In this document: positions 37,655 through 56,978 of the stretch, one piece after another | How the letters are laid out: each line of letters begins with the position of its first letter | How positions within the stretch are numbered: the first letter of the stretch is position 1 | Assembly: GCF_020164495.1 (NCBI RefSeq) | Contig: NZ_JAIQYZ010000002.1 | Location: forward strand, 1-64,000 | Direction: 5' to 3' | DNA from: Psychroflexus lacisalsi | Lineage (GTDB): Bacteria > Bacteroidota > Bacteroidia > Flavobacteriales > Flavobacteriaceae | Length of the DNA: 64,000 bases | Made by a program: the position numbers and the translations under genes | The notes under the pieces: model-generated | Database searches by the model: none | What the model was told of the DNA's origin: nothing | The model's input: the letters and a program-made list of their open reading frames with translations, nothing else

Positions 37655-37668
37655 CCCGTTTTTATTTT

Positions 37669-37676: not shown

Positions 37677-37717
37677 GCATTCTTTATGCGCACATATAAT
37701 AGTAATCTCTTATATGC

Positions 37718-37760
37718 TGATTTTTATCATTTTAAATACGTCACTTCCCTATTACTTTTG
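37718..37760 (+). promoter_or_regulatory. hemN promoter with Crp/Fnr-type box
   Basis: TGATTTTTATCA (37718-37729), a TGAT-N4-ATCA palindrome, is followed by the -7 element TACTTTTG (37753-37760). The box centre is 36.5 nt from the last base of the -7 element, which is about -41.5 from the predicted start, the class II activator position. No -33 TTG is present, as expected for an activated promoter. Confidence 0.65.
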
Positions 37761-37778
37761 AATAAAATGCAATAAATA

Positions 37779-39122
37779 ATGCAGAATTTAATAAAAAAAT
37801 ATAACGTTCCTGGGCCAAGATACACGAGTTACCCCACCGTTCCTTTTTGGGATGAATCCACTTACAACACAAAGTCATGGATCCAAAGTCTTCAAAAAGA
37901 AAACTCTTCCAGAGAAATAAGCTTATATATTCATCTCCCTTTTTGTGAAAGTCTATGCACGTTTTGTGCGTGTAACAAACGTATCACCAAAAGACATGAA
38001 GTGGAAATTCCTTATATAGAAGCCCTTCTTAAAGAATGGAATATGTATTTAGATATTCTTCAGGATAAACCTATTCTGAAAGAAATACACCTGGGTGGCG
38101 GAACACCTACTTTTTTTGACCCAAAACATCTGAAATATCTACTGGATACGATTAAAAAAACCTGCGAAATTCCTGAAGATGTAAGCTATAGCTTTGAAGG
38201 TCATCCTAATAATACAACTACAGATCATTTACAAACATTGCGACAGTTAGGCTTTGATCGAGTGAGTTACGGCATTCAGGATTATAGTCCTAAAGTTCAA
38301 ATTGCGATACACAGGTTTCAGTCTTTTGAAACTGTTAAAAGGATTACTGAAAAGTCTAGGTTATTGGGATATACCTCTGTGAGTCACGATCTTATTTACG
38401 GTTTACCCTTGCAAACCTTACAAGATGTCATTTCAACCATAGAGAAGACCATAGAAATTATGCCAGATCGTATTGCTTTTTATAGTTATGCACATGTACC
38501 ATGGACTAAAGGAAATGGACAGCGTGGCTATGATGAAAAGGATTTACCTTCTCCAGATTTGAAGCGTCAACAATATGAGATGGGTAAAAAAATGCTCGAG
38601 GAAAAAGGATATATCGAAATTGGGATGGATCACTTTGCACTGTCTGAAGATGGATTAACCAAAGCTTTCCAAAATCAAAATCTGCACAGAAACTTTATGG
38701 GCTATACGACAACAAAAACTGAAAAAATGATAGGACTTGGAGTATCAGCAATAAGTGATAGCTGGTTTGGTTTTTCTCAAAACCATAAAAATCTCAAAGA
38801 TTACTATACTAGTCTATCCAAAAATGAATTACCAGTCTCCCGAGGTCATATTTTGAATAAAACCGATCTGATTATCAGAAGAAAAATATTAAATTTAATG
38901 TGTCACTTTGTATCTGATCTGGATGGATTAGACATTAGCGATCAGCTTGAAATAAAAAGCGATCTGGCTGAATTTAAGACTGACGACTTAATAAATATAG
39001 AAGATGATATGATACAAGTAAAAACAACAGGAAAAGCTTTTATTAGAAATATATGCATGGCATTTGATCTTAGATTGAAAGCGAAGCAAACAGAATCACA
39101 ATTATTTTCAATGACCATTTAA
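37779..39122 (+). CDS. hemN: Oxygen-independent coproporphyrinogen III oxidase
   Basis: A 447-residue radical-SAM enzyme converting coproporphyrinogen III to protoporphyrinogen IX without oxygen, for haem synthesis at low oxygen. The [4Fe-4S] motif is Cys56-x3-Cys60-x2-Cys63 in PFCESLCTFCAC; the N-terminal YNVPGPRYTSYPT and the segments HLGGGTPTFF and SYGIQDYSP mark genuine HemN rather than HemW. A Crp/Fnr-type box sits at its promoter. The universal stress protein gene follows after 11 nt. Confidence 0.95.
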   Translation: MQNLIKKYNVPGPRYTSYPTVPFWDESTYNTKSWIQSLQKENSSREISLYIHLPFCESLCTFCACNKRITKRHEVEIPYIEALLKEWNMYLDILQDKPILKEIHLGGGTPTFFDPKHLKYLLDTIKKTCEIPEDVSYSFEGHPNNTTTDHLQTLRQLGFDRVSYGIQDYSPKVQIAIHRFQSFETVKRITEKSRLLGYTSVSHDLIYGLPLQTLQDVISTIEKTIEIMPDRIAFYSYAHVPWTKGNGQRGYDEKDLPSPDLKRQQYEMGKKMLEEKGYIEIGMDHFALSEDGLTKAFQNQNLHRNFMGYTTTKTEKMIGLGVSAISDSWFGFSQNHKNLKDYYTSLSKNELPVSRGHILNKTDLIIRRKILNLMCHFVSDLDGLDISDQLEIKSDLAEFKTDDLINIEDDMIQVKTTGKAFIRNICMAFDLRLKAKQTESQLFSMTI

Positions 39123-39133
39123 ATCCAAATATT

Positions 39134-39967
39134 ATGAAAAAGATATTAGTACCCGTAGATTTCTCAACACCATCTGAAAACGCACTTAAAGTTGCAGCAC
39201 AACTTGCAAAAAAGAATAATGCAGAAGTACATGTATTGCATGTGGTAGAACTTGCAGAATCTCTGTTTGGCGCCGAACAATTTAATGTAAACGACGAGCA
39301 AATCATTTTCTTCATGAAACTTGCTCATAAGCGTTTTGAGAAATTTTTAAAACAAGATTATTTAGAAGATGTCACTGTAAAAAGTTACGTTGAACCAGGA
39401 TCTGCTGCAATGGCTATAAAAGATACGGTTAGTAAAAACGAGATTGATATGATCGTGATGGGTTCTAGTGGCACTTCAGGATTAGAAGAAATTGTGATAG
39501 GTTCAAACACAGAGAAAGTTGTAAGATATTCTGAAGTACCTGTATTGGTTGTCAAAAATGAAATACAAAGTATCAATATTAAAAACACTGTTTTTGCATC
39601 TAATTTTGAAATTGAAAATATTGAGGCCTATCAAAAAGCTAAAAAGTTTGCAGATAGTTTTGATGCAAAAATGCATATGCTTTATGTGAATCTTCCAGGA
39701 AATCAGTTTAGCAGTACTACAGAAATACACGAGCAAATGCGAGTCTTCCTAAATAAGGTCCAAATGCCTCTAAATAAGGAACATATCGAAATTTTTAATG
39801 ATTACACCATACAGGAAGGAGTTTTAAATGGATCTAAGAAGCTTAAAGCTGACCTTATCATTATCCCAACACACGGAAGAAAAGGCTTATCTCATTTCTT
39901 CAATGGTAGCATTGGTGAAGATGTAGTCAATCATTCAGAATTACCTGTTCTCACTCTCAAAATTTAA
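39134..39967 (+). CDS. Tandem universal stress protein
   Basis: A 277-residue protein made of two UspA domains (about 1-140 and 145-277). The first has VPVDFSTPSENAL and the ATP-binding VMGSSGTSGLEEIVIGSNTEKVV; the second ends with PTHGRKGLSHFFNGSIGEDVV, also a G-x9-G-S/T-like nucleotide motif. It is cytosolic and probably binds ATP. Co-transcription with hemN behind a Crp/Fnr-type box suggests a role in low-oxygen or stationary adaptation, as is common for Usp genes. Confidence 0.9.
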   Translation: MKKILVPVDFSTPSENALKVAAQLAKKNNAEVHVLHVVELAESLFGAEQFNVNDEQIIFFMKLAHKRFEKFLKQDYLEDVTVKSYVEPGSAAMAIKDTVSKNEIDMIVMGSSGTSGLEEIVIGSNTEKVVRYSEVPVLVVKNEIQSINIKNTVFASNFEIENIEAYQKAKKFADSFDAKMHMLYVNLPGNQFSSTTEIHEQMRVFLNKVQMPLNKEHIEIFNDYTIQEGVLNGSKKLKADLIIIPTHGRKGLSHFFNGSIGEDVVNHSELPVLTLKI

Positions 39968-39984
39968 TAAATCATTTGTATTAA

Positions 39985-40018
39985 TAAAAAAACACCTCAG
40001 CTTGAGGTGTTTTTTTAT
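39985..40018. terminator. Bidirectional terminator between usp and trxA
   Basis: AACACCTCA and TGAGGTGTT (9-bp perfect stem, 3-nt loop) are flanked by an A-run on the left and a T-run on the right. It terminates both hemN-usp and the leftward trxA gene, whose stop lies at its edge. Confidence 0.88.
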
Positions 40019-40317
40019 TAAGAATTTGACTTGATGACTTGTACAATCTCATCTTTCTGCAAAACACCACTTTGTCTCCATTTTTGTTCACCGTTTTTAA
40101 AAACAATCATGGTCGGCACACCTCTCACCTGATATTTAGCTGCTAGTTGCTCGTTTTTGTCCACATCTATTTTGATGATTTTAATAGCATCACCAAGTTC
40201 TTCTTTAACTTCTTTAAGTATTGGAGCTAGCATTTTGCAAGGTCCGCACCAATCAGCAAAAAAATCAATAAGCACCGGAGTTTCACTTTTTATAATTTCA
40301 TTAAATTTCTGACTCAT
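40018..40317 (-). CDS. trxA: Thioredoxin
   Basis: A 99-residue cytosolic thioredoxin with the active site WCGPCK (Cys24, Cys27) and the cis-proline loop GVPTMIVFKNG. It is a full-length single domain with no signal peptide. It is the likely reductant for the BCP peroxiredoxin and other thiol enzymes in the window. It is downstream of the CoA-transferase gene by 40 nt in the same direction and may share its transcript. Confidence 0.93.
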   Translation of the reverse strand: MSQKFNEIIKSETPVLIDFFADWCGPCKMLAPILKEVKEELGDAIKIIKIDVDKNEQLAAKYQVRGVPTMIVFKNGEQKWRQSGVLQKDEIVQVIKSNS

Positions 40318-40357
40318 AATTGTAAATTTTTAAATTAATACTCAAAATAATTATCTC

Positions 40358-41644
40358 TTAAGCTTTTGACCTAAAGCGCTCAAAAGCTGCTTTCTCAAGA
40401 TTTTCACGATGATCTGGATGAGCGATTGAAATTAAGGCTTCTGCTCTTTGTTTTAGATTTTTACCATAAAGATTGACGACTCCATATTCTGTGATTATAT
40501 AGTGTACGTGAGCTCTAGTTGTTGTTACACCTGCACCTTCATTCAGGAATGAAGAAATCTTTGAAATACCTTTACTGGTAACAGATGGCATTGCAATAAT
40601 AGCTTTACCACCTTCAGACAAGGAAGCTCCTCTTATAAAATCCATTTGTCCACCAACACCAGAAAATTGCAGTTTACCAATAGTATCAGCACAAACCTGA
40701 CCTGTAAGATCTATTTCAATAGCAGAATTGATCGCAGTAACTTTAGGGTTACGTCTTATAATCGCTGTATCATTAGTGTAAGCCGCCTCCTTCATATGTA
40801 CCAATGGATTATCATCTATAAAATTATAAAGTTTTTGAGAACCCACAGCAAAACAAGTTACAATTTTACCAGTCTTCACTTCTTTTTGACTTCCATTGAT
40901 GACACCACTTTCAACAAGTGGTAAAATCCCATCAGAAAACATTTCTGTGTGAATACCTAAGTTTTTATGACCTCCGAGATTTTTGAGAGCAGCATTAGGA
41001 ATTCCACCAATGCCCATTTGTAACGTAGCACCGTCCTCCACCAGACTTGCAACATTAGCTCCTATTTTACTTTCCAGTTCTGAAACTTCAGTAGGTTCAT
41101 GACCAAATATGGACTCATCAACTTCAACTGCAAAATCTAATTCACTCATATGTATAATTCCATCACCGTGAGTTCTTGGCACTTGAGGATTGACTTGTGC
41201 AATAACCAACTTGGCTGTTTGAATGGCAGGTATTGTGATGTCGACTGAAACACCGAGTGAACAATAGCCATGCCGGTCTGGAGGTGAAACTTGTATAAAA
41301 GCAACATCTAAAGGCAAAATTGAACGTCTGAAAAGTCTGTGAATTTCACTTAAAAAAATTGGAATATAATCACCATTACCTTCCCTTACAGAGTTTCTCA
41401 CATTTCCACCAACAAATGCACTGTTGATCTTAAAAGCCCTGGAATAAGGTTTTTCTGTATATGCTGCCTGACCTTCGGTATGAAGATGCATAATTTCAAC
41501 ATCTTCTAAAGATTCATATCTGGAAACCAAAGCATCAATAAGGTTGAAGGGAGTCATCGCTGCACCCTGGATAAAGACTCTGTCCCCAGATTTAACTTTG
41601 GAAATAGCTTCTTCAGCCGTTACTTTATTAAATTGATGAATCAT
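40358..41644 (-). CDS. Acetyl-CoA hydrolase/transferase family CoA-transferase
   Basis: A 428-residue class I CoA-transferase of the acetyl-CoA hydrolase / 4-hydroxybutyrate CoA-transferase family. The catalytic glutamate lies in GIHTEMFSDG (about residue 235). Other family stretches are GDRVFIQGAAMTPFNLIDAL, SPPDRHGYCSLGVSVD, MGIGGIPNAAL and the C-terminal ITEYGVVNLYGKNLKQRAE. It probably swaps CoA between acetate and another acid. A Crp/Fnr-type box lies upstream at a class I distance, so it may be active under low oxygen. Confidence 0.87.
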   Translation of the reverse strand: MIHQFNKVTAEEAISKVKSGDRVFIQGAAMTPFNLIDALVSRYESLEDVEIMHLHTEGQAAYTEKPYSRAFKINSAFVGGNVRNSVREGNGDYIPIFLSEIHRLFRRSILPLDVAFIQVSPPDRHGYCSLGVSVDITIPAIQTAKLVIAQVNPQVPRTHGDGIIHMSELDFAVEVDESIFGHEPTEVSELESKIGANVASLVEDGATLQMGIGGIPNAALKNLGGHKNLGIHTEMFSDGILPLVESGVINGSQKEVKTGKIVTCFAVGSQKLYNFIDDNPLVHMKEAAYTNDTAIIRRNPKVTAINSAIEIDLTGQVCADTIGKLQFSGVGGQMDFIRGASLSEGGKAIIAMPSVTSKGISKISSFLNEGAGVTTTRAHVHYIITEYGVVNLYGKNLKQRAEALISIAHPDHRENLEKAAFERFRSKA

Positions 41645-41668
41645 ATATTTCTATCTTAAATTAAAGTA

Positions 41669-41732
41669 CAAAAATAAGAGCCAAAAATCTATTATAGCTG
41701 AGCTTAAACGAAAGCTTATATGATTTCAATCA
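41669..41732 (-). promoter_or_regulatory. CoA-transferase promoter with Crp/Fnr-type box
   Basis: The -7 element on the minus strand is TATTTTTG (41669-41676). TGATTTCAATCA (41721-41732) is a TGAT-N4-ATCA palindrome whose centre is 57.5 nt from the last base of the -7 element. That is exactly 21 nt, two helical turns, further than at hemN and the cco promoters, fitting a class I (about -62) position. Confidence 0.55.
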
Positions 41733-41789
41733 GTTTCTGGGAAGGTTTTTTAATAAGAGAAAAAGGATTCAAATTTTGAATTTGACTAA

Positions 41790-42188
41790 TTAATTATTCT
41801 GAATCTGACTCCAGGTCCAAACTTGTGCATCTTTATATGTTGAAAATATCTCAAAAGGAACAGGCTGTTTTTGAAGCAAGAGAATCATCTTTAACACCCA
41901 TCTCATGGTTTTATTTGGAATCACATAAGCAGTCCCTAAGCAATAGTCCTCCATCAAAGTGATATTTTCCTTTAACCATTGAGCTTGCAAAATCTGATGA
42001 GAAATTTTAGGCACCACAGCGTTTGTAGCATCAAAAACGATAGCCAATTTCTGCTGTGCAAAATAGCAATCATCTAGTTCTTTCAGGTAGGACTTAAAGC
42101 TGGCGTTAGTTCCTCTTTCACCAGTAAATGTTACCGTTATTAAAGGAAATGCTGTCTGATCTACAACTGCGTAAGGATTCGTTTTCAA
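41790..42188 (-). CDS. STAS / SpoIIAA-like domain protein
   Basis: A 132-residue single-domain protein resembling the SpoIIAA-like / STAS-fold group: a beta-strand opening (FPLITVTFTGERG), the segment KLAIVFDATNAVVP and a helical C-terminal half. Stand-alone members are common in Bacteroidota and have no defined role. Both a TTG start at 42188 and the -7 box (TAAATTTG, 42199-42206) just upstream lie immediately after gltD, so the gene is likely expressed from its own promoter. No ATG is available near the N-terminus. Confidence 0.65.
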   Translation of the reverse strand: MKTNPYAVVDQTAFPLITVTFTGERGTNASFKSYLKELDDCYFAQQKLAIVFDATNAVVPKISHQILQAQWLKENITLMEDYCLGTAYVIPNKTMRWVLKMILLLQKQPVPFEIFSTYKDAQVWTWSQIQNN

Positions 42189-42198
42189 AATTTTTATC

Positions 42199-42206
42199 CA
42201 AATTTA
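42199..42206 (-). promoter_or_regulatory. -7 element of the STAS-domain gene
   Basis: The minus strand reads TAAATTTG, ending 10 nt before the TTG start at 42188, in the 28-nt gap after gltD. Confidence 0.4.
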
Positions 42207-42216
42207 GAATAAACTT

Positions 42217-43674
42217 TTATACTTCCAAACTTAAGTAAGAATCGTTTTTGGATGGAAGTTCGGTAGTTCCCATCAAGAATTCATCCACTTCCCTGGCAGC
42301 TTCTCGGCCTTCTGAAATAGCCCAAACCACTAAGGATTGGCCTCTTCGAGCATCTCCTGCAGCAAAAATGAAATCTATATTTGTTGAATAATTATTAGAA
42401 TCTATGGTTCCAGATTTGGTTTGAGAAACACCAAGATGCTTAAGAAGCGAACTTTCAGGCTGTGTGAATCCGATAGCAAGTAATGCAAGTTCACAAGGTA
42501 TTAAACGCTCTGTTCCTTCGATTTCCTTCATCTCTTGTCTTCCACCTTGGTTAACCCACTCGAGGTCTACAAGTTTGATATGAGTAAGCTCACCTTTATC
42601 GTTTCCAACAAATTCCTTGGCTAAAGTACTCCATTTACGCTCACCGCCTTCTTCATGAGAAGAAGAGGTTCTTAAGGTCATTGGCCACATTGGCCATGGA
42701 TCATTAATTCCGCGTTTACTTTGTGGTTTCGGCATTAATTCCAGTTGCAATACAGATGCAGCGCCTTGTCTGTGAGACGTTCCTATACAATCTGAACCTG
42801 TATCACCTCCGCCAAGAACCACAACATTTTTACCTTCTGCAGTTATTTTATCGTCAAACTTAATTCCATCAATTTCCTTATTCTGAAGACTAAGGAAATC
42901 CATAGCATAATGGATACCTTTCAATTCTCTGCCAGGTATAGGAAGATTTCTTGGAACCGTTGAGCCAGTGCAAACCACTATAGAATCGAAATCGTCTTTC
43001 AACACATCAGGATTTACAGTTTTACCGACTTCAGCATTAACCTTGAAACGTACTCCTTCATCATCCATAATTTGAATGCGACGGTCTACTACCCATTTTT
43101 CAAGTTTGAAATCTGGAATACCATACCTCAACAATCCACCAATTTTCGCTTCTCGTTCAAATACCGTAACCCAGTGACCAGCTTTATTCAATTGATCTGC
43201 TGCTGCAAGCCCTGCAGGGCCGGAACCGATGACAGCGACTTTCTTACCAGTTCGCACTTTAGGTGCATTAGCTTTTATAAATCCCATTTCATGAGCTTTC
43301 TCAGCAATTGTTTTCTCAATATGCTCTATCGCCACAGGATTTTTATTAATTCCTAAAACACAGCTAGCTTCACAGGGTGCCGGACAAATTCTTCCGGTAA
43401 ACTCAGGAAAATTGTTTGTTGAGTATAAAATGGAAACTGCATTTTTCCAATCTTCGTTATGAACTGCTTCATTAAATTCTGGAATGATATTACCAAGCGG
43501 ACAACCTGAATGGCAAAAGGGCACTCCACAATCCATACATCTTGCGGCCTGACTCTTGGTCTTCTCTTCTGGAAAAGGCTCAAATATTTCTTTATAATCA
43601 CCAATTCTCGCTTCTGGAGGTCTACTATTTGGCAACTCTCTATCATATTTCAAAAATCCGTCGTGTTGTCCCAT
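42217..43674 (-). CDS. gltD: Glutamate synthase (NADPH) small subunit
   Basis: A 485-residue flavoprotein that passes electrons from NADPH to the large subunit for glutamate synthesis. N-terminal Cys clusters for [4Fe-4S] centres are [18 protein letters not shown] and [15 protein letters not shown] and NADP Rossmann motifs are [10 protein letters not shown] and [30 protein letters not shown] closes the FAD site. Length is typical. Its ATG overlaps the gltB stop (TAATG), giving tight coupling. Confidence 0.95.
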
Positions 43675-46600
43675 TATGCTACTATTTTTTGTTCTTGTTT
43701 TTCTTTCGCTTCTAAAATTCGTTTGTAATCATGTGGAATGATCTTGACAAAATGAGATTTCATCTCTTCAAAATGATCTAAAACGTATTTTGCTTTCTTG
43801 CTTCTCGTCAATTGATAATGATTCTCAATCAAGACTCTAAGTTCTTTAAAATTCTCTTCAGAAGGAGTTTCAAGTCCTACCATTGCTTTGTTACAATTAT
43901 TTTCAAAAGTATTTTGATCATCGAGAATATAAGCGGTTCCACCACTCATACCTGCGGCAAAATTCTTACCTGTTTCTCCTAAAATTACAATTTTACCGCC
44001 TGTCATATATTCGCAGGCATGATCTCCAACACCTTCTACTACGGCTTCCACACCAGAATTTCTGACACCAAAACGCTCGCCAGCCATTCCGTTAATATAA
44101 GCTGTTCCTGAGGTTGCTCCATAAAAAGCAACATTTCCTATGATTATGTTTTCTTCTGAATCAAATGAAGAGGACTTTGGAGTGTAGATAATTAATTTTC
44201 CACCAGATAAACCTTTGCCAAAATAGTCATTGGATTCACCTTCAACTTCAAAAGTGACACCTTTCGCTAAGAAAGAGCCGAAACTCTGACCAGCAGATCC
44301 ATCAAATTTGAAATGTATAGTATCTTCTTTAAATCCCTCAGCTTTAAATTTCATACTGATTTCATTGGATAATATTGCACCAGTGGCTCGATCGATATTT
44401 CTAATTGAATATGAGTTTTTTACTGATTTACCACTTTCAAAAGCTGGTTTTGCATCTTCCAAAAGTTTCCAGTCTAAAACTTCGTCAATTTCATGATCCT
44501 GATCAATTTGCTTAAAGACACCCACTTGCTCGGCTATATGTTCTTGATATAAAATTGGACTCAAGTCCAGATCTTTCAATTTCCAGAATGGTACGTCTTT
44601 TCTTACTTTCATTACTTCTGAGTGACCTACCATGTCACTCACTGTCTTGAATCCAAGTTGAGACATGATTTCTCTCAAATCTTCCGCCAGGAATCTAAAG
44701 TAATTGACCACATGGTCTGGGTTTCCTGTGAAAAGTTTTCTCAGTTCAGGATTTTGTGTTGCAACACCTACCGGACAGGTATTGGTGTGACATTTTCTCA
44801 TCATGATGCAACCTTCCACAATCAAAGCTGCTGTGGAAATTCCCCATTCTTCAGCGCCGAGTAAAGTAGCGATTGCGAGGTCTCTACCAGTTCTTAACTG
44901 GCCATCCACCTGAACGGTGATTCTACTTCTTAAATTATTTTTCACCAGCGTTTGATGAGCTTCGGACAAACCAAGCTCCCAGGGCAAACCTGCATGACGT
45001 ATAGAACTTAAAGGAGATGCTCCAGTTCCTCCATCTGCTCCAGAAATCAGAACCACTTCAGCATTGGCTTTTGAAACTCCCGCAGCCACCGTACCCACAC
45101 CAGCTTGTGAAACCAATTTCACATTGATTCTGGCTTTGCGATTTGCATTTTTCAAATCGAATATAAGTTGGGCTAAATCCTCTATAGAATAAATATCGTG
45201 GTGTGGAGGTGGTGATATTAATCCAACACCAGGAGTTGAATGTCTCACTCTACCAATCCACTCATCAACTTTATGACCAGGCAGTTGACCACCTTCTCCA
45301 GGTTTTGCTCCCTGTGCCATTTTAATCTGAAGTTCATCAGCATTGGTGAGGTAGTAACTCGTCACCCCAAAACGACCTGAAGCTACCTGTTTGATTGCAG
45401 AACGCTCCCAATTCCCATTAGGTTTCACTTCAAATCTGGCTTCATCTTCTCCGCCTTCGCCACTATTACTTTTGGCACCAATCCTGTTCATGGCAATAGC
45501 TAAAGTGGAATGTGCTTCGTGCGAAATCGAACCAAATGACATGGCTCCAGTGGCGAAACGTTTCATAATATCTTCTGCCGGTTCTACTTCCGCAAGTGGT
45601 ATGGGTGTTCTTTTTTTGAACTCCAATAAACCTCTTAAGGTCAAAGAATCTTTTAATTGGTCATTGACCGTTTTCGCGAACTTTTTATACAAAGAAAAAT
45701 TATCCGTCTGTGAAGAATGCTGGAGCAAATGAATAGTTTCCGGATTGAAAAGGTGTTTTTCACCTCTCAACTTCCACTGATAAACTCCGCCAACTTCCAA
45801 ACTCTTTTTCACCTCATCATTTCCTGGAAAAGCTTTGTGATGTCTAACCAGAACTTCTTGAGCAAGCCCATCAAAGTCAATACCTTCTATCCTTGATATG
45901 GTGCCTTTAAAGCATTTTTCAATGACAGTAGTATGCAAGCCTAGAGCTTCAAAAATCTGAGCTCCTTGGTAAGATTGAACTGTGCTAATTCCCATTTTAG
46001 AAAGAATTTTCAGTAGTCCATACCCTATAGCCTCTTGATAATTTGCTTTAGCTTGATCTATACTTATATCTGCATCGAGTTTTCCATCAATTTGCTGATG
46101 TTCGATAGATTGTAGGGCTAAATAAGGATTGACAGCACTAGCTCCATAGCCTATTAACGTTGCAAAATGATGTGTTTCTCTAATATCTCCCGCTTGCACC
46201 AAAATTCCAGCTTTAGTTCTCAAATTCAGTTTGACCAGATGGTGATGAACTGCTCCTGTAGATAGCAAGGATGGGATTGGCGCATGGTTTTTATCAATAG
46301 CTTTATCAGATAAAATCAAAACCTTTTTACCAGATTTTACAGCATCTTCTGCTTTTTTACAAACCTCATCTATAGCCTTCTCTAAGCTTCCAGGTTTTCC
46401 ATCCGCCTCAAAAACACAATTAATAAAGCCGTAGTCAAAGCCTTTTTCTGCTAGATGCTTAAATTTTTCAATATCAGAATCCAATAAAACAGGTTGTGAA
46501 ATATGAATCTGTTTGGTATGTAATTCAGATTCGTCCAATATATTAAGACTTTCTCCAACTCTTGTGAATAGCGACATCACCATTCTCTCCCGAATAGGAT

Positions 46601-48185: not shown

Positions 48186-48247
48186 AAAAAAAATTTCAAC
48201 TATTATTATAAGAATTAACTCTTAAATCTAGTTAATTATGAGGAAAA

Positions 48248-48267
48248 TAATCAGCTATAGCAGATTA
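48248..48267. promoter_or_regulatory. Near-perfect palindrome upstream of gltB
   Basis: TAATCAGCTA / TAGCAGATTA form 10-bp arms around a dyad with one mismatched pair. It lies 63 nt upstream of the gltB start and could be an operator for a nitrogen-responsive regulator. No matching -7 box was found between it and gltB. Confidence 0.4.
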
Positions 48268-48367
48268 ATTAAGCATTATTTTTGTTAAAATTGATTATAC
48301 GCTAAACTAAAACGATTTCGTAAGTGTTTGAAGTAGGATACGGAATGAAGGAAGATTAATCTTAAAG

Positions 48368-49069: not shown

Positions 49070-49516
49070 TTAGATTTGGATTTTCTGTTGAATAAAGTAA
49101 TCTTCTCCTTTGTGATTGAACTTTAGATTAACTTCCCATTTCCCAGCCTCCATCAATGATCTTGGCAAAACATATTCACTGTTTTCCAATTGAAGCTGAA
49201 CTGTGAAATCCAATGCCTTATCTGAAGGTCTGTAGAGAAAAACTTCTCCTTCTATTTCAGAATAGTCAAAATCTGAAGGAAAAATAATCTGAAGCCCTTC
49301 TGATATCATTGCTATATTCACCTGATTTTCCAAATCTGCCGCATTCTGCGCAGAATCCAAATCCTCCTGAAAAGTCAATTCTTTCTGGTAATAAGACTCT
49401 ACTACAAGGTCGTATTCTAGTTCTTTATTTGATAACATTTGTACCACCATAAACATGATGAATCCTATGAAAAGTACAAATGCGATTACTATAGATGTTC
49501 CCCAATTTAATTTCAT
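49070..49516 (-). CDS. FixH family protein
   Basis: A 148-residue protein with one N-terminal membrane helix (about residues 7-27) and a periplasmic beta-rich domain, matching FixH/CcoH-like proteins: SYYQKELTFQEDLDSAQNA is the characteristic stretch after the helix. FixH is needed for cbb3 oxidase assembly, probably with the copper ATPase. It lies 6 nt after ccoG and abuts the SafE-like gene. Confidence 0.85.
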   Translation of the reverse strand: MKLNWGTSIVIAFVLFIGFIMFMVVQMLSNKELEYDLVVESYYQKELTFQEDLDSAQNAADLENQVNIAMISEGLQIIFPSDFDYSEIEGEVFLYRPSDKALDFTVQLQLENSEYVLPRSLMEAGKWEVNLKFNHKGEDYFIQQKIQI

Positions 49517-49522
49517 AATTTT

Positions 49523-50938
49523 TTATCTAAAAGTTCGTGGTCCCATGAAGTTGGTCGTTGCCCGGTCAATGATTCGGTCTTTGCTGTAAACTTCTATTTC
49601 AATTTTATTTTTAGAATCACTAAGCTGAGCTGGTTCTATTTCTATAAAGAAAGTTCCTTTGGCAATTCCGCCTTTATCTATGCTGAAATACTCTTTTTTG
49701 ACCATTTTTAATTCTCCGTCAAAAGAGTTGATTTTGAAATGAATACTATCCATTTCCACATTAGTTTTGTTCAATAATTTATAGGTAAAAACATTGGATA
49801 CTTTACCTTCCTTTGTCATTTCATAAAGTTGTCCAGGTAATCTCAAAACCTTTGCTTCAATATCGCTTCTGATAAGTAAAAGACCCATTAAAAAACCAAT
49901 AAGTATCGTCAGAACTGCTGAATAGCCTTTCAATCTCGGTGTAAATTCGAATTTTGCTTTTTTCTCAATATTCTCTTCACTAGCATAACGAATAAGTCCC
50001 TTAGGTAAATCCACGCTTTCCATGATCGAATCACAGGCATCAATACAGGCAGTGCAATTAACACATTCCAGCTGAGTCCCATTTCGAATATCTATCCCCG
50101 TAGGACAAACCTGGACACATTGCGCACATTCAATACAATCTCCAACGCCTTCTTCTGCCCTATTTTGATTTTTCTTAAATTTCTGACGGCCAAGCTCCCG
50201 CTCTCCTCGATTATGGTCATAAGCTACCACAATAGATTTCTTGTCCAGCATCGCTCCTTGAAGTCTCCCGTAAGGACAAGCTATGATACAGACTTGCTCT
50301 CTAAACCAGGCGAATACAAAGTAGAACACCGCCGTAAAAATGAGCAATGGAATAAATGTTCCTAAGTGACTGGTTGGTCCGTTGGTGATGTATTTCACTA
50401 ACTCATCACTACTGATCAAGTAAGCTAAAAACACATTGGCAATCAAAAAGGAGATGATGGCAAAAATAGTCCATTTACTTCCTTTTTTAAATATTTTCTC
50501 TTTGTTCCATGGTGCCTTATCTAAGCGTATTTGCTTGCCTCGATCCCCTTCAATGGCGTATTCTATTCGTCTGAATACCATTTCCATAAAAATGGTCTGT
50601 GGACAAATCCAGCCGCAAAAGATTCTACCAAAAGCCACTGTAAACAAAGCGATAAAAACAACTCCAATAATCATGGAAATCACAAAAAGATAAAAATCCT
50701 GTGGCCAAAACGGAAACCCAAAAATGTTGAATTTACGCTCTAATACATTAAAGAGTAAAAATTGATTCCCATTGATTTTAATAAAAGGAGCAGCTAACAA
50801 GAAAAGTAACAGAAAATAACTAACGTATTTTCTATACTTATAAAAAACACCATTAGGCTTTTTTGGATATACCCAAGCACGCTTTCCCTCCTGGTCTAAC
50901 GTTCCTATGCTGTTTCTAAATTCTTCTTTATTATCCAC
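49523..50938 (-). CDS. ccoG: Cytochrome c oxidase accessory protein CcoG
   Basis: A 471-residue membrane ferredoxin-like protein (CcoG/FixG/RdxA) implicated in copper reduction for cbb3 oxidase maturation. Several N-terminal helices are followed by two [4Fe-4S] clusters with CIECAQCVQVCPTGIDI and CVNCTACIDACDSIM, another helix and an Ig-like C-terminal periplasmic domain. CGWICPQTIF and ACPYGRLQG are family motifs. The start is GTG at 50938. It lies 17 nt after ccoP in the oxidase operon. Confidence 0.93.
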   Translation of the reverse strand: MDNKEEFRNSIGTLDQEGKRAWVYPKKPNGVFYKYRKYVSYFLLLFLLAAPFIKINGNQFLLFNVLERKFNIFGFPFWPQDFYLFVISMIIGVVFIALFTVAFGRIFCGWICPQTIFMEMVFRRIEYAIEGDRGKQIRLDKAPWNKEKIFKKGSKWTIFAIISFLIANVFLAYLISSDELVKYITNGPTSHLGTFIPLLIFTAVFYFVFAWFREQVCIIACPYGRLQGAMLDKKSIVVAYDHNRGERELGRQKFKKNQNRAEEGVGDCIECAQCVQVCPTGIDIRNGTQLECVNCTACIDACDSIMESVDLPKGLIRYASEENIEKKAKFEFTPRLKGYSAVLTILIGFLMGLLLIRSDIEAKVLRLPGQLYEMTKEGKVSNVFTYKLLNKTNVEMDSIHFKINSFDGELKMVKKEYFSIDKGGIAKGTFFIEIEPAQLSDSKNKIEIEVYSKDRIIDRATTNFMGPRTFR

Positions 50939-50955
50939 TTCGCTTTATTTTATAA

Positions 50956-51843
50956 TTATTCTACTCCTTCTACCCAAATCTCACCTTCAGGTTCTTTAGG
51001 TTCAGCTGGGACAGTCCCTTGCAATGAAAGCACATAACTCGCTACCTGCTGTAATTCTGAAGGTTTGAAGTCATTTTTCCATGACACCATGCCTTTACCA
51101 GGACGTCCGCCTTCAAATAAAGTTCTATATACATTCTTGATCCCACCCCCAAGAATCCAATGTTCATCTGTTAAGTTAGGGCCAATTCCTCCACCGGCAT
51201 CGGCTTTGTGACAAGCTACGCAGTTGTTGGTGTAGATTTGCTTACCAGCTTCTAGATCTGACGGATCTGCCATAAGCGTTACTGTTTCCAGAGTGACCAA
51301 ATCTTTGGCAGTTTCTTTATATCGAGCAATATCTATTTCAGCTTGTGCCAGCTCAGCTTTATATTCTTCAATTTGTGTGTAATCGTCAAACACATGGAAT
51401 CTTACTAAGTAAATGGCCGCAAAAACTATACTTGCATAGAAGCTATAGATCCACCATGGTGGTAATTTATTATCCAGCTCACGAATTCCGTCATAGTTAT
51501 GATCCAGTTCAATTTCACCTTCTTCTTCAATAGGTCTTGAACGTGTTAGAAGTTTTGGAAGATTTTCAAATTTTGCCTTCAATTGATCCACACGTTTATT
51601 TTCAAGAGCTAAGAATTTTTCTTGTTTCTCTTCTGAAAGTGATTTGAACAATGTAAATCTTAGTGCAGCTACAAAAACTTCAATGGCAATAGATACTAGA
51701 GCTATGACCCCCAAGAAAATTAAGGTTTTTGGATATGCTAAGACGGCAAGCTGTCCTGGTTCTGTTTCAAAAAGAAGTTCAACTCCTCCCCAAGCTATTG
51801 CTACCAGCGCTATGATTCTAAATATAGATGCTAGGTTCCTCAT
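50956..51843 (-). CDS. ccoP: cbb3 oxidase subunit III, mono-haem CcoP
   Basis: A 295-residue membrane-anchored c-type cytochrome. Two N-terminal helices are followed by a linker, the CcoP N-terminal motif RELDNKLPPWWIYSFYASIV (third helix, about 130-150) and one haem-binding CVACH at about residue 207. Proteobacterial CcoP carries two such motifs; here I see only one, as in many Bacteroidota. The protein passes electrons to the catalytic subunit. Its ATG overlaps the ccoQ stop (ATGA). Confidence 0.9.
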   Translation of the reverse strand: MRNLASIFRIIALVAIAWGGVELLFETEPGQLAVLAYPKTLIFLGVIALVSIAIEVFVAALRFTLFKSLSEEKQEKFLALENKRVDQLKAKFENLPKLLTRSRPIEEEGEIELDHNYDGIRELDNKLPPWWIYSFYASIVFAAIYLVRFHVFDDYTQIEEYKAELAQAEIDIARYKETAKDLVTLETVTLMADPSDLEAGKQIYTNNCVACHKADAGGGIGPNLTDEHWILGGGIKNVYRTLFEGGRPGKGMVSWKNDFKPSELQQVASYVLSLQGTVPAEPKEPEGEIWVEGVE

Positions 51844-52025
51844 AATTCATGTTCGTTTTTAGATTCCAATGGTATTTGACTTACTTCTTCCACATAGTCT
51901 TTCTTGGCGGTAAACACCCACCAGAAAAGCACAACAAAAAAGATGAAGAAAATAAGCAGGGAAATGATAGGATAGATCTCTATCCCTTGTATCGTTTCCA
52001 TATGTCCTTTTATAAATTTCAACAT
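51840..52025 (-). CDS. ccoQ: cbb3 oxidase subunit CcoQ
   Basis: A 61-residue single-helix protein (helix about residues 17-39, ending FWWVFTAKKDYVEE) with a charged C-terminus, the CcoQ/FixQ pattern. It stabilises the cbb3 complex in other bacteria. An in-frame ATG at residue 9 is an alternative start. It lies between the fused ccoNO gene (11-nt gap) and ccoP (4-nt overlap). Confidence 0.85.
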   Translation of the reverse strand: MLKFIKGHMETIQGIEIYPIISLLIFFIFFVVLFWWVFTAKKDYVEEVSQIPLESKNEHEL

Positions 52026-52036
52026 AGTTCAAGTAT

Positions 52037-54232
52037 TTAATTAGAAGTTGTAACTTCTTGGTTAGTCTTTATTTTAATATCAGTTCCAAGCCTCTGCAGA
52101 TAAGCAATCAGAGCAACAATCTCTCTGTTTTTCATTTCGACAAAATCAAGATTATTCTCTTCTGCATAAGCTTTATCAGCTTCGTAAGCTTTTACAAAAT
52201 CCGGATCGTTATACAAATTGGATTGAATTTCCTCTCCCTGGGCAAGCATAGAAGCCTGAGCATTTTCTATTTCTTCATCAGAATAAGGAACTCCTAAATT
52301 TGCCATTGTCTTCAGCTTATCGACAGTGTTTGATTTATCCAATTCACTTTTGATTAGCCACTGGTAACTTGGCATGATCGATCCCGATGATGTGCTTTGT
52401 GGATCATACATATGGTTGAAGTGCCAGTTGTCTGAATATTTTCCTCCAACCCTTAATAAGTCTGGTCCGGTACGTTTACTTCCCCATAAGAAGGGTCTAT
52501 CGTAAACAAACTCTCCAGCTTTGGCATATTCACCATAACGCTCTACTTCACTTCTAAAAGGTCTCACCATTTGAGAGTGACATCCCACGCAACCTTCTCG
52601 AATGTATAGATCACGACCCTCAAGTTCTAATGGAGTATAAGGTTTCACAGTAGAAATAGTCGGGATATTAGATTTGACTAATAAAGTTGGTATGATCTGA
52701 ACAATACCGCCTATAAGAATTGCGATTGTTGCCAGGATGGTTAATTGAATAGGTTTTCTTTCCAACCAAGTGTGGAATTTTTCTCCTCTTTTTCTTCTAC
52801 CACCACGGCTTAAAGCAGCTGCTTCTGCAAGCTCATCTTCAACGCTTGAACCAGCTTTTGCTGTTCTAATAACGTTGTAAATCATTACAAATGTACCTAT
52901 GATATAAAGACTACCTCCAATAGCTCTCATCCAGTACATTGGCATAATTTCAGTCACAGTTTCCAGGAAGTTACCGTAAAACAAACTTCCATCTGGATTG
53001 AATTGTTTCCACATAGAGGCTTGCAAGAAACCTGCGACATACATTGGTAATGCATACATCACAATTCCTAGAGTTCCTAGCCAAAAGTGTAAGTTGGCTA
53101 ATCCTACTGAAAATAATTTAGTTTTGAATAATCTTGGGATTAACCAATAAACCATACCAAAAGTAAGGAATCCATTCCACGCTAAAGCTCCAACATGGAC
53201 GTGAGCAATGATCCAGTCTGTAAAGTGAGCGATCGCATTAACATTTTTAAGCGAAAGCATAGGTCCTTCAAAAGTAGCCATACCATAACCAGTAATGGCA
53301 ACCACGAAGAATTTAAGAACAGGATCTGTTCTAACTTTATCCCATGCACCACGAAGGGTAAGAAGACCGTTGATCATTCCCCCCCAGGATGGCATCAACA
53401 ACATAATAGAAAAAGTAACACCTAAATTTTGAGCCCAGTCAGGTAGTGCTGTATACAGCAAGTGATGAGGACCAGCCCAGATGTAGATAAAGATCAAAGA
53501 CCAGAAGTGAATAATCGATAATTTGTAAGAATAAACAGGTCTGTTCGCTGCTTTAGGTACAAAATAATACATCAAACCTAAGAATGGAGTAGTCAAGAAA
53601 AACGCAACCGCGTTGTGTCCATACCACCATTGTACCAATGCGTCCTGAACACCAGCATAAGCAGAATAACTTTTAAATAGGTTAACCGGCAAGGCCAAAC
53701 TATTGAAAATATGAAGTACGGCAACGGTAACGAATGTAGCTAAGTAAAACCAGATGGCTACGTATAAGTGACGTTGACGTCTTTTCAGAATAGTACCAAT
53801 AAGATTCCATCCAAAAACAACCCAAACGATAGCTATCATAATATCGATAGGCCATTCTAATTCAGCGTATTCTTTGGAGCTTGAAAAGCCTAGAGGTAAA
53901 GTGATTGCTGCTGCAACGATGATCAATTGCCATCCCCAGAAATTAATTTTACTGAGAGCATCACTAAACATTCTCGCTTTGAGCAATCTTTGAGTAGAGT
54001 AATAAACTCCTGCAAATATGGCATTTCCCACAAATGCAAAAATCACAGCGTTGGTGTGTAATGGTCTTAAACGACCGAAACTTAACCAAGAGATACCGTC
54101 GGTAACGCTTGGAAAAATAAACATAAATGCCAATAAAAGGCCAACAGACATTCCAATAACGCCCCAGATAATGGTGGCATAAAGGAAGTTTTTTACGATT
54201 TTATTATCGTAATGAAATTGCTGTAACTCCAT
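52037..54232 (-). CDS. ccoN: Fused cbb3 oxidase subunits I and II (CcoN-CcoO)
   Basis: A 731-residue fusion. Residues about 1-480 are the haem-copper catalytic subunit CcoN (twelve or more helices; HTNAVIFAFVGNAIFAGVYY, WWYGHNAVAFFLTTPF, IIAHVHVGALAWNGF with haem and Cu_B histidines). A basic linker (GGRRKRGEKFH) leads to CcoO with one helix and the haem c site EGCVGCHSQM (about residue 547) followed by WGSKRTGPDLLRVGGKYS. The single-chain form is usual in Bacteroidota. It reduces oxygen to water with high affinity while pumping protons. Confidence 0.95.
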   Translation of the reverse strand: MELQQFHYDNKIVKNFLYATIIWGVIGMSVGLLLAFMFIFPSVTDGISWLSFGRLRPLHTNAVIFAFVGNAIFAGVYYSTQRLLKARMFSDALSKINFWGWQLIIVAAAITLPLGFSSSKEYAELEWPIDIMIAIVWVVFGWNLIGTILKRRQRHLYVAIWFYLATFVTVAVLHIFNSLALPVNLFKSYSAYAGVQDALVQWWYGHNAVAFFLTTPFLGLMYYFVPKAANRPVYSYKLSIIHFWSLIFIYIWAGPHHLLYTALPDWAQNLGVTFSIMLLMPSWGGMINGLLTLRGAWDKVRTDPVLKFFVVAITGYGMATFEGPMLSLKNVNAIAHFTDWIIAHVHVGALAWNGFLTFGMVYWLIPRLFKTKLFSVGLANLHFWLGTLGIVMYALPMYVAGFLQASMWKQFNPDGSLFYGNFLETVTEIMPMYWMRAIGGSLYIIGTFVMIYNVIRTAKAGSSVEDELAEAAALSRGGRRKRGEKFHTWLERKPIQLTILATIAILIGGIVQIIPTLLVKSNIPTISTVKPYTPLELEGRDLYIREGCVGCHSQMVRPFRSEVERYGEYAKAGEFVYDRPFLWGSKRTGPDLLRVGGKYSDNWHFNHMYDPQSTSSGSIMPSYQWLIKSELDKSNTVDKLKTMANLGVPYSDEEIENAQASMLAQGEEIQSNLYNDPDFVKAYEADKAYAEENNLDFVEMKNREIVALIAYLQRLGTDIKIKTNQEVTTSN

Positions 54233-54234
54233 AG

Positions 54235-54441
54235 TTATGATTGTTTTTGTTGATTGTTCGAATTTTCTTTGTCTTTCACTTTAGCGTCATCGTCTTTGAC
54301 TAATTCGTCATCGAATAGCATTCTCACCGATGGTGTATAATCATCATCAAATTGGCCTTTTTTTACTGAGAAAATAAAAAGCCCGAAAAACACAAGGGCT
54401 ACAAGAATACTGATGGCAAGAAGTCCGTAGATGACGTTCAT
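54235..54441 (-). CDS. ccoS: cbb3 oxidase assembly protein CcoS
   Basis: A 68-residue protein with one N-terminal helix (about residues 3-26) and the short motif KKGQFDDDYTPSVRMLFDDE that identifies CcoS, needed for cofactor insertion into the cbb3 oxidase. It is 2 nt upstream of ccoN and is the first gene after a promoter in the ccoI-ccoS gap. Confidence 0.88.
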   Translation of the reverse strand: MNVIYGLLAISILVALVFFGLFIFSVKKGQFDDDYTPSVRMLFDDELVKDDDAKVKDKENSNNQQKQS

Positions 54442-54456
54442 AGTTTATTTTTTTTT

Positions 54457-54499
54457 CAAAATTACATGGGAAGTTCTCTTTAAAAAATGACGTTAGTCA
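54457..54499 (-). promoter_or_regulatory. ccoS promoter with Crp/Fnr-type box
   Basis: The -7 element on the minus strand is TAATTTTG (54457-54464), 15 nt before the ccoS ATG. TGACGTTAGTCA (54488-54499), a TGAC-N4-GTCA palindrome, overlaps the ccoI stop codon and is centred 36.5 nt from the last base of the -7 element, the same distance as at hemN and ccoI. Confidence 0.6.
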
Positions 54500-56889
54500 T
54501 GTTTACTTAGCTTTTCATTAAGAATTGGTTTGGAAATGTATTGTGTTGCCAATGTTGTAAAAATGACGATTGAAATTGAACTCAAAGGCATTAGTATCGC
54601 TGCAATGACTGGCTGTAGCTGACCTGTCAAGGCGAAATATAGACCTATGACATTATAGAGGAATGAGAATGCAAAACTGAGTTTAATGATTTTGATTCCT
54701 TTTTTTGTTATACTCACATACTTATCTAGTTTATAAAATTCAGAAGCATCCATTATCGCATCGCAGGCAGGAGAAAAAACGTTCACATCCTCTGAAATAG
54801 CAATCCCTATATCAGCCTGTTTTAATGCTCCTGCATCGTTTAAACCATCACCAACCATTGCGACACTTTTGTTTTCAGATTGAATTTTTTCTATCAAATG
54901 CATTTTGGAATCAGGCTTTTGATTGAAAAACATCTGAGTGGTTTTAGGCAGCATCTTTGTAAGTACTGGCTTCTCACCTTCATTATCACCAGAAAGTATA
55001 ATCAATTTATAATATGAATCTAGTGACTCAAACAGTGGCTCTACACCTTTTCTGTAAACCGTATCAAATTCAAACTTGCCTAAGTAGGTTTCATCTTTAC
55101 TGATGTGAACGGCAGTTGACAAACTCGCATCCTCCACATGATCTGAAACAAATTTTGCAGAACCCAATTTATAAGTGTGGTCATTGTAAGATGAAATAAT
55201 TCCTTCCCCAAGGTGTTCTTCAAAAGATTCTGAATCTTGAATATTCTGACTACTTAAAAAGGAATACAACTCTCTACTCAAAGGGTGATTGGAGTTTCTA
55301 AAAGAGTTTTTCAACACCATCTTATCATCCTCGCTTAGAGTCAAGCCAGAATATGAAATATCACTTTTTTTATTTGTTGTTAACGTTCCTGTTTTGTCGA
55401 AAACAAAAACATCAAGATCTGCCATCTGCTCCAGGACGTTTGTATTTTTGAGATAAAATCCATTCTTCCCGAAGATCCTCAACAAGTTACCCATAGCAAA
55501 GGGCGTCGCTAAGGCTATAGCACAGGGACATGCAATGATAAGCACCGCCGTAAATACATTTAAGGCAAGACTGGCATCGTAAAAAAGCCAAAAAAACAAG
55601 CCTGAAAAGGCTATAGAAAGAACAGCTACTGTAAATTTCTTACTGATTTTGTCAATAAGACTTTGAAATTTTGGATTGTAATCTTTTTGAAAGACATCAT
55701 TACTCCACAATTGGGTCAGATAACTTTGTTCAACCGACTTTTCGGCAACAATTTCCACAGCGCTGCCACTTTGCTTTCCTCCGGCATAAACTTTATCACC
55801 AGACACTTTTTTCACAAGTTTAGCCTCACCGGTGACAAAACTATAATCGATTTCTGCAGAAACGGACATCAGGACTCCATCTACTGGGAGCAATTCCTGA
55901 TTTCTGATGAGTAACCTATCCCCTCTTTCTATTTCATAAACCTGGGTGTTTTCTTCTTTTCCTTCTGAATTTATTTTCGTTACCGCTATTGGGAAGTAAG
56001 ATTTGTAATCCCTTTCGAAGGACATAAATTTATACGTCTTCTGCTGTACAATTTTACCTAAAAGCAAAAAGAACACTAAACCTGTAAGACTATCGAAAAA
56101 ACCAGATCCTAAATTGAAAAGAATATCAACAGTACTTCTCAAAAATAAAACGGTGATTCCTAAAGCTATGGGGATATCAATATTTAAAATTTTACTTCTT
56201 AAACCTTTAATGGCCGACTTGAAATAATCTTGCCCAGCGTAGAAAACCACCGGCAAACTGAAGAAAAACATGAGCCATCTAAAAACTGGCTTATACTGCT
56301 CCAACCAATATTCTGTAACCTCAAAGTATTCTGGAAAACTCAGAAACATCACATTACCAAAAGCAAAGCCGGCAACACCAATTTTGTAAACTAGACTTCT
56401 ATCCAAACTTTGCTTGGCTTGTCCGTAATTTTCAAGGCTGATATAAGGTTCGTAGCCTATTCTCGACATCAACTCGACCAATGACTTTAGAGAAAATTCT
56501 TCAGTATTGTAAGTTACTGTCACTTTTTTCTTGGGAAAGTCAACTTGAGAAGAAACGACGTGTTTATTTAATTTATGGAGATTCTCTAGGACCCAAATAC
56601 AAGAGCTACAGTGAATATGAGGGATATAAAGAGTGACAATTTCAGTAGAATCTTCTTGAAAATCAATAAGTTTATTAACGATATCTTCCTTTTCAAGATA
56701 ATCGAATTTGCCATTGATTTCATTTGGAGTTGCACCGGGATTCTGTTCTAAGTCATAATAACACGTCAAGTCATTCTCAGAAAAAATCTCAAAAACGGTT
56801 TTACAACCATTACAGCAAAAGACTTTATCATCGTGATAAACTTCGATTGAACAGTCATCACCACAGTGAAAACACTTATCCTTCGACAT
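54493..56889 (-). CDS. ccoI: Copper-translocating P-type ATPase CcoI
   Basis: A 798-residue P1B-type ATPase that moves copper for cbb3 oxidase assembly. An N-terminal Cys-rich part (CFHCGDDC, CCNGC) precedes a heavy-metal-binding domain with HIHCSSCIWVL (about residue 93). Eight helices carry the metal site CPC in IIACPCAIALATP (about 456), then the phosphorylation motif DKTGTL (about 496), TGEAKLV and GDGLNDAGAL (about 683). Length and the N-terminal DUF-like Zn ribbon match CcoI/FixI. It is the first gene of the oxidase locus and has its own promoter. Confidence 0.93.
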   Translation of the reverse strand: MSKDKCFHCGDDCSIEVYHDDKVFCCNGCKTVFEIFSENDLTCYYDLEQNPGATPNEINGKFDYLEKEDIVNKLIDFQEDSTEIVTLYIPHIHCSSCIWVLENLHKLNKHVVSSQVDFPKKKVTVTYNTEEFSLKSLVELMSRIGYEPYISLENYGQAKQSLDRSLVYKIGVAGFAFGNVMFLSFPEYFEVTEYWLEQYKPVFRWLMFFFSLPVVFYAGQDYFKSAIKGLRSKILNIDIPIALGITVLFLRSTVDILFNLGSGFFDSLTGLVFFLLLGKIVQQKTYKFMSFERDYKSYFPIAVTKINSEGKEENTQVYEIERGDRLLIRNQELLPVDGVLMSVSAEIDYSFVTGEAKLVKKVSGDKVYAGGKQSGSAVEIVAEKSVEQSYLTQLWSNDVFQKDYNPKFQSLIDKISKKFTVAVLSIAFSGLFFWLFYDASLALNVFTAVLIIACPCAIALATPFAMGNLLRIFGKNGFYLKNTNVLEQMADLDVFVFDKTGTLTTNKKSDISYSGLTLSEDDKMVLKNSFRNSNHPLSRELYSFLSSQNIQDSESFEEHLGEGIISSYNDHTYKLGSAKFVSDHVEDASLSTAVHISKDETYLGKFEFDTVYRKGVEPLFESLDSYYKLIILSGDNEGEKPVLTKMLPKTTQMFFNQKPDSKMHLIEKIQSENKSVAMVGDGLNDAGALKQADIGIAISEDVNVFSPACDAIMDASEFYKLDKYVSITKKGIKIIKLSFAFSFLYNVIGLYFALTGQLQPVIAAILMPLSSISIVIFTTLATQYISKPILNEKLSKHD

Positions 56890-56906
56890 ATAATTAAATT
56901 AGGATA

Positions 56907-56949
56907 CAAAAATCTCACAACAGGCTGTTACTAAAAATGATAAGTATCA
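56907..56949 (-). promoter_or_regulatory. ccoI promoter with Crp/Fnr-type box
   Basis: A slightly degenerate -7 element, GATTTTTG on the minus strand (56907-56914), lies 17 nt before the ATG. TGATAAGTATCA (56938-56949), a TGAT-N4-ATCA palindrome, is centred 36.5 nt from its last base. The weak -7 box is typical of an activator-dependent promoter. The box could also influence the divergent gene at 56998, at a different phase. Confidence 0.6.
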
Positions 56950-56978
56950 GCTCTGGTTATATTGGAGGAATAAGTTTA

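Follow-up and report, generated by a model that had tools for sequence, protein, structure and literature searches.

Crp/Fnr-type boxes at a fixed distance from TAnnTTTG promoters delimit a candidate low-oxygen regulon in Psychroflexus lacisalsi

The first 64,000 nucleotides (nt) of a contig of the flavobacterium Psychroflexus lacisalsi (hereafter the window, C12:1-64000 of a 3.04 Mb genome; contig NZ_JAIQYZ010000002.1 of assembly GCF_020164495.1) contain four palindromes of the form TGAY-N4-RTCA, each lying at a fixed distance upstream of a promoter -7 element. They precede hemN, for anaerobic haem synthesis, ccoS-ccoN and ccoI, for a cbb3 oxidase and its assembly, and a gene of the acetyl-CoA hydrolase/CoA-transferase family. 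Taken together, our results make it reasonably probable that these boxes are Crp/Fnr operators serving class II and class I activation in a low-oxygen regulon, whose most likely reader in this genome would be CrpA, a protein in which a receiver is fused to a Crp-type regulator. The four boxes and their fixed geometry, pointed out in a first-pass annotation made from the letters of the window, are confirmed, and its interpretation of them as a candidate low-oxygen regulon is supported by the genome comparisons described here.

Boxes and promoter geometry

The box of hemN (TGATTTTTATCA, 37718..37729, plus strand) is followed by the -7 element TACTTTTG (37753..37760, plus strand). On the minus strand lie the box of ccoS-ccoN (TGACTAACGTCA, 54488..54499) with the -7 element TAATTTTG (54457..54464), that of ccoI (TGATACTTATCA, 56938..56949) with the element GATTTTTG (56907..56914), and that of the CoA-transferase gene (TGATTGAAATCA, 41721..41732) with the element TATTTTTG (41669..41676). 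All four are where the first-pass annotation had placed them and its distances are also correct: from the centre of the box to the last base of the -7 element there are 36.5 nt at hemN, ccoS and ccoI, corresponding to a gap of 23 nt between box and element, and 57.5 nt, exactly 21 more, at the CoA-transferase gene (gap 44). The TAnnTTTG context that it attributed to these promoters is found at hemN, ccoS and the CoA-transferase gene, but the ccoI element departs from it by one mismatch and lacks the T.

The class II position of Escherichia coli CRP and FNR is -41.5. A start-site map of Flavobacterium psychrophilum, a relative of P. lacisalsi, obtained by sequencing of RNA 5' ends (main text of PMC9723704), puts TAnnTTTG at -12 to -5, and a box centred 36.5 nt above its last base would thus lie at -41.5, whereas the box of the CoA-transferase gene would lie at -62.5. 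Gap 23 and this element position therefore agree with the class II geometry (about -41.5) proposed earlier for hemN, ccoS and ccoI. According to the same text, cbb3 oxidase and haem-synthesis genes of F. psychrophilum are up under oxygen limitation, and neither Crp nor Fnr occurs in it. We infer that activators of the Crp/Fnr family use these boxes as operators, and that at hemN, ccoS-ccoN and ccoI an activator bound at -41.5 would replace the -33 element and contact a sigma-A polymerase reading TAnnTTTG.

Taken alone, the box is near chance in the window (nine copies against 5.86 ± 2.38 expected, with nine reached in 14 of 100 shuffles), which would favour regarding the four boxes as chance palindromes of AT-rich promoters. 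Its combination with the promoter is not: the window contains three exact boxes with TTTG at gap 23, compared with a mean of 0.08, and none of 300 Markov shuffles reached three, these sites being the same three that had suggested the pattern. The whole-genome scan advised by the first-pass annotation yielded 18 matches to CAAANNTA-N(8-38)-TGAYN4RTCA, nine of them at gap 23 (p ~1e-9, assuming that all 31 gaps are equally likely), and seven matches to the reversed pattern; outside the window, seven of 15 pairs show gap 23 (p ~2e-7, on the same assumption of 31 equally likely gaps). With one mismatch allowed anywhere in the fixed-gap pattern, the genome contains 34 matches, compared to 10 for the reversed control. 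Over the 149 genera introduced below there are 1153 exact fixed-gap sites and 21 for the reversed pattern. An equal frequency of such boxes at random AT-rich promoters had been named as evidence against a regulon; the fixed-gap composite lies far above its control. In view of these gap statistics, and of conservation in up to 110 genera, we ruled out chance palindromes, the probability of which is negligible.

Conservation was evaluated in 149 Flavobacteriaceae genera, with one genome per genus and that of P. lacisalsi included. An orthologue of ccoI is present in 116 of these genera, of which 110 were compared after leaving out six with partial or distant matches (G050, G078, G119, G133, G136 and G176). 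For hemN, with matches in 146 of the 149 genomes and about 100 close orthologues, we examined the loci of 64 genomes, skipping those with less than 45% identity or too near an end. The exact box occurs at ccoI in 107 of the 110 genera; ccoS has it in 94 of 110 and hemN in 55 of 64. It is followed by TTTG at gap 23 in 96, 62 and 49 genera, respectively, and the remaining gaps between 10 and 54 add up to 31, 7 and 7 TTTG (with 65 hemN loci, one genome counting twice); at ccoS, 90 genera have TAnnTTTG at gap 23 when one mismatch is allowed. Aligning the promoters of related bacteria, a check also advised at the outset, thus reveals that boxes and geometry are conserved at the three genes across genera.

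The ccoI and CoA-transferase promoters

The oxidase unit starts with ccoS (54235..54441, minus strand; 68 amino acids), which encodes a cbb3 maturation protein of the FixS family (PF03597), followed by a ccoN/ccoO fusion for oxidase subunits I/II (52037..54232, minus strand) that scores above the cut-offs of NF011053, TIGR00780 and TIGR00781. The gene that we call ccoI, from its place before ccoS-ccoN, encodes a heavy-metal P-type ATPase of cbb3 assembly (54493..56889, minus strand; PF00122, PF12156 and PF00403). Among the 96 genera with TTTG at gap 23, the base at -12 of the ccoI promoter is A in 37, G in 28, C in 27 and T in only four, the position having changed 40 times or more on the ccoI tree; under the same neutral criterion, T occupies this position in 62 of 62 genera at ccoS and in 48 of 49 at hemN. 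The neutral count for ccoS supersedes one of 89/90, which is biased because the promoters had been selected by TAnnTTTG.

A -7 element that avoids T is not covered by the first-pass annotation. The avoidance probably reflects selection for low activity of the ccoI promoter when unaided by its activator, an effect that the missing T would probably have. Alternatively, T might be absent due to an overlapping signal, such as a leader element or another operator, as could be suspected from the partial conservation of the ccoI leader itself: 48 of the 96 genera have GGTAT at most 14 nt downstream of TTTG and 43 have GAGCAAA, and neither appears in any of 50 hemN leaders. Yet the position takes A, G or C indifferently and with many changes, T alone being avoided, and T is present in all five ccoI promoters that have a 22-nt gap. 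An overlapping signal is, hence, somewhat unlikely, and we favour the tuning of promoter strength.

Two further observations concern the ccoI upstream region. The leader after the -7 element is partly conserved as a GGTATAAATGAGCAAAT-like stretch (loci L072-L101 and L162-L241), which is not evident at 56890-56906 of the window. The ccoI box is also 29 nt from TATCTTTG, facing a divergent gene (56998-57561; region 56938-56986) without any Pfam match, and a genome of the same genus (G004), among the matches listed, also shows gap 29 at such a site.

The CoA-transferase gene (40358..41644, minus strand; PF13336 and PF02550) encodes a protein that reaches 309 bits with TIGR03948, below the equivalog cut-off of 674.8. 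It is followed after 40 nt by a thioredoxin gene (40018..40317, minus strand; PF00085), and both genes also adjoin in locus L268, so that they probably form one unit. Only one of the 12 matches that the genome has at gaps 39-69 shows gap 44, and the class I position was therefore judged from relatives alone. Among 18 loci of the same genus (that of P. lacisalsi included, and a truncated one, L262 from G002, left out), seven show gap 44, seven show gap 23 and four show neither; all 14 with either gap contain an exact TAnnTTTG. In the seven with gap 44, spacers diverge down to 41% identity and their length remains constant at 44, a constrained spacing lying whole helical turns above the class II position, as befits class I.

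In other genera the picture is different. CoA-transferase relatives were matched in 79 of the 149 genomes, and we examined the 30 best loci (at least 70% identity), leaving out a group with 57–61%. Among the 29 loci from other genera, 12 have the exact box; 11 of these show TTTG at gap 23, all without T at -12, and gap 44 is absent from all 29. The class I position claimed by the first-pass annotation thus stands for seven of 18 loci of the genus, the rest being class II or boxless, and class I as a general feature was ruled out, because gap 44 occurs once in this genome and in none of those 29 loci. The simplest reading of these alignments would be that within the genus the box shifted from -41.5 to -62.5, the activator acting in part of it from two helical turns higher.

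Candidate regulators and their distribution

In 24 of 29 ccoI loci from other genera, a Crp/Fnr gene, here designated crpF, lies beside ccoI, always on the opposite strand (24/24). Its product has four cysteines that are invariant in the 24 sequences and aligns over its length to FNR proper (structures such as 5cvr and 5e44): C7, C10 and C109 (numbering of L078) align with three cluster cysteines of FNR, which we take to be C20, C23 and C122. Unlike in FNR, however, the position of C29 is not a cysteine in the aligned query, and the fourth invariant residue is an extra cysteine, C56. In most ccoI-bearing genera, a reader of the boxes would be this FNR-like protein, whose gene diverges from ccoI. 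On the other side of a box, the 110 regions upstream of ccoI also contain TTTG, in 10 cases at gap 23 and in three at most for any other gap, which suggests autoregulation of the divergent crpF in some genera.

This genome has no close relative of CrpF, a lack that the first-pass annotation does not cover. Four of its proteins match the Crp helix-turn-helix family, the best match to CrpF being CrpA (31% identity, E 4.7e-28), and no FNR-type cluster-cysteine regulator was found among them: CrpA has an N-terminal receiver, and CrpB, CrpC and CrpD were read by eye. In CrpA, which is 95% identical to a receiver-Crp protein of Psychroflexus longus, the receiver is followed by cNMP-binding and Crp-HTH domains in a single protein (Response_reg, cNMP_binding and HTH_Crp_2). 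Its gene adjoins one for a PAS histidine kinase, and the best solved relatives of the PAS domain are DosP and FixL. At the positions of the proximal haem His and the distal Arg of FixL, the kinase of this genome also aligns His and Arg, conserved by eye in 29 and 26 of 30 orthologues, respectively; it is a putative haem binder. The 30 best CrpA loci, including that of P. lacisalsi, all have the kinase gene adjacent, 28 have a universal stress protein (Usp)-like gene and 27 a gap-23 box after crpA, each of these 27 boxes lying ahead of the Usp-like gene. CrpA and CrpF share the recognition-helix motif E-[ST]-x-I-R, while CrpC and CrpD, read by eye, miss its glutamate and were set aside as readers.

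Genera that lack CrpF tend to have CrpA. With presence thresholds chosen by eye where the lists show a gap (E below 1e-45 for CrpF, 1e-70 for CrpA and 1e-150 for ccoI; the CrpA-type matches include some with 40–50% identity) and counts taken from the rows for each genome, 115 of the 116 ccoI-bearing genera have CrpF or CrpA, as do six of the 33 others; the only ccoI-bearing genus with neither is G078, whose genome is 82% complete. CrpA occurs in 29 of the 30 ccoI-bearing genera without CrpF, against 35 of the 86 with it (Fisher p 1.8e-8). On a FastTree ccoI tree, the CrpF state requires no fewer than 10 changes along starred branches, and of 10 independent pairs on this tree an average of 6.9 agree with the association of CrpF loss and CrpA, 0 oppose it and 3.1 show no difference (median p 0.016, range 0.004–0.125). 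Of the 28 genera compared that lack CrpF, 27 retain the ccoI box. Exact fixed-gap sites average 6.5 per genome with CrpF only (n=55), 8.9 with CrpA only (n=31), 13.9 with both (n=35) and 1.2 with neither (n=28), the reversed control giving 0.04–0.19 across these groups. The sites thus follow these regulators, and in genera that lack CrpF the best candidate reader is CrpA. In P. lacisalsi, low oxygen would activate the FixL/DosP-like kinase, which would phosphorylate CrpA and allow it to activate the promoters.

At the base preceding the box (-48) of ccoI, ccoS, hemN and Usp genes, A predominates in genera with CrpF and C in those without it. Despite strong raw counts, we dropped this shift as proof of a regulator swap, because independent pairs gave a median p of 1; the difference may be a clade effect.

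Several points weigh against CrpA as the reader, or against the regulon as a whole. One is CrpB (C12:183724), a second Crp/Fnr protein whose recognition helix carries the motif (E-T-V-I-R) and whose gene is flanked by fixed-gap boxes, with a gene for a ScdA/hemerythrin protein in the same region; in G037, a 60% relative of CrpB is encoded close to hemN and the CoA-transferase gene. In Pseudomonas, ANR and DNR share boxes, and the regulon could likewise be read here by CrpB, or by CrpA and CrpB jointly. Nevertheless, the best match of CrpB to CrpF has 24% identity, versus 31% for CrpA, and CrpA is present in all but one of the CrpF-less, ccoI-bearing genera; we therefore consider a role of CrpB unlikely and retain CrpA as the preferred reader. 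Against CrpA also count the 35 genera that carry both regulators, so that CrpA is not simply a substitute, and the PAS domain of its kinase, of a common sequence type of which many members may not bind haem. The association of CrpF loss with CrpA uses a tree in which 45 of 107 inner branches are weakly supported, and a matching change in the operator is not demonstrated, the -48 shift from A to C finding no support in independent pairs. Sites also occur in the absence of both regulators, as in G078 (nine sites), G177 (seven sites; 73% complete) and G168 (five sites; 99% complete), and the exact box is missing from 16 of 110 ccoS loci and from nine of 64 hemN loci. Lastly, what sequence establishes is the geometry, its conservation, the base preferences and the distribution of the regulators; start sites and expression under oxygen limitation are those of F. 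psychrophilum, and binding, activation, oxygen sensing and phosphotransfer are predictions.

Regulon members, signal and comparison with known systems

Exact fixed-gap sites precede, among others, hemN, ccoS-ccoN, the Usp gene after crpA and the genes for a DJ-1 family protein and a WG-repeat protein. Sites with one mismatch precede ccoI and genes for two more Usp, a second WG-repeat protein, DnaJ, an S30AE ribosome-hibernation protein, a ScdA/hemerythrin protein, a 2Fe-2S protein and an ATP-cone protein. One of the exact sites (C45:137050) is not followed within 300 nt by the start of any 50-codon open frame, and downstream of several one-mismatch sites there is no clear gene; some of these sites probably occur by chance. 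From the genes listed, the regulon would include the cbb3 oxidase and its assembly, anaerobic haem synthesis, universal stress proteins, the S30AE factor, DnaJ and the ScdA/hemerythrin protein. A Usp gene (39134..39967, plus strand; PF00582) starts 11 nt after hemN (37779..39122, plus strand; oxygen-independent coproporphyrinogen III oxidase, 424.7 bits and above the cut-off of the TIGR00538 equivalog), and from this spacing both are probably in one unit.

Eight one-mismatch sites and one exact site concentrate in 14 kb of the genome (G000:C1:1470241-1484026, locus L056), upstream of two Usp genes, dnaJ, the gene for the S30AE hibernation factor and two WG-repeat genes, perhaps constituting a stress or dormancy cluster. 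The hemN box is, additionally, 41 nt from TAACTTTG, facing a divergent gene (37211-37693; region 37669-37729).

The signal of the regulon is most likely low oxygen. The same class II, Crp-type operators could respond instead to carbon or nitrosative stress, considering that ScdA/hemerythrin and DJ-1 family genes also follow such sites and that PMC8510549 assigned some Flavobacteriales Crp/Fnr proteins to MalR-like carbon sensing. This is quite improbable, because the targets include the cbb3 oxidase, its assembly and the oxygen-independent hemN, the CrpF proteins of relatives have cysteines aligned with three of the cluster cysteines of FNR, the kinase linked to CrpA has a FixL/DosP-like PAS domain and, in F. 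psychrophilum, cbb3 is induced on oxygen limitation (main text of PMC9723704).

The low-oxygen regulon so outlined can be compared with those of FNR, ANR and FixK from Proteobacteria, which have cco and hemN among their targets and a class II position at -41.5. They have in common the target genes, a palindromic TGA core, the -41.5 geometry and an E...R recognition helix. FNR prefers a flanking T (TTGAT) and has Ser212 where the flavobacterial helix has Ile; here, in contrast, the flanking base is mostly A or C, the promoter is TAnnTTTG and the candidate targets include Usp, the S30AE factor and the CoA-transferase unit. The FixL-FixJ-FixK relay of rhizobia offers the other comparison, with a FixL/DosP-like PAS kinase, a receiver, a Crp-family reader, and cbb3 and hemN as likely targets. 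FixJ and FixK are separate proteins, and in CrpA receiver and Crp reader are a single one, so that a FixJ-FixK cascade would lose its middle transcription step. In titles and the starts of abstracts of the papers listed, with few subscription journals among them, we found neither Crp/Fnr box geometry on TAnnTTTG promoters nor a receiver-Crp fusion as an oxygen regulator of Bacteroidota, which is weak evidence of novelty.

Tentatively, and with a plausibility just short of even, we propose that one operator and one geometry have been passed between an FNR-like iron-sulfur protein and a pair formed by a haem-PAS kinase and a receiver-Crp fusion, with promoters tuned inside this geometry through the -12 base of ccoI and the position of the CoA-transferase box. 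The absence of the FNR-like gene goes with the presence of the fusion, and a box would have moved by exactly two helical turns within one genus. Flavobacteria would then offer several natural experiments, in which identical operators are paired with different regulators, members of one genus use class II or class I positions for the same gene, and a lone promoter base, the T at -12 of ccoI, is apparently selected against. As a yardstick, a box centred 36.5 nt from the last base of the -7 element may allow a candidate low-oxygen regulon to be read directly from flavobacterial genomes.

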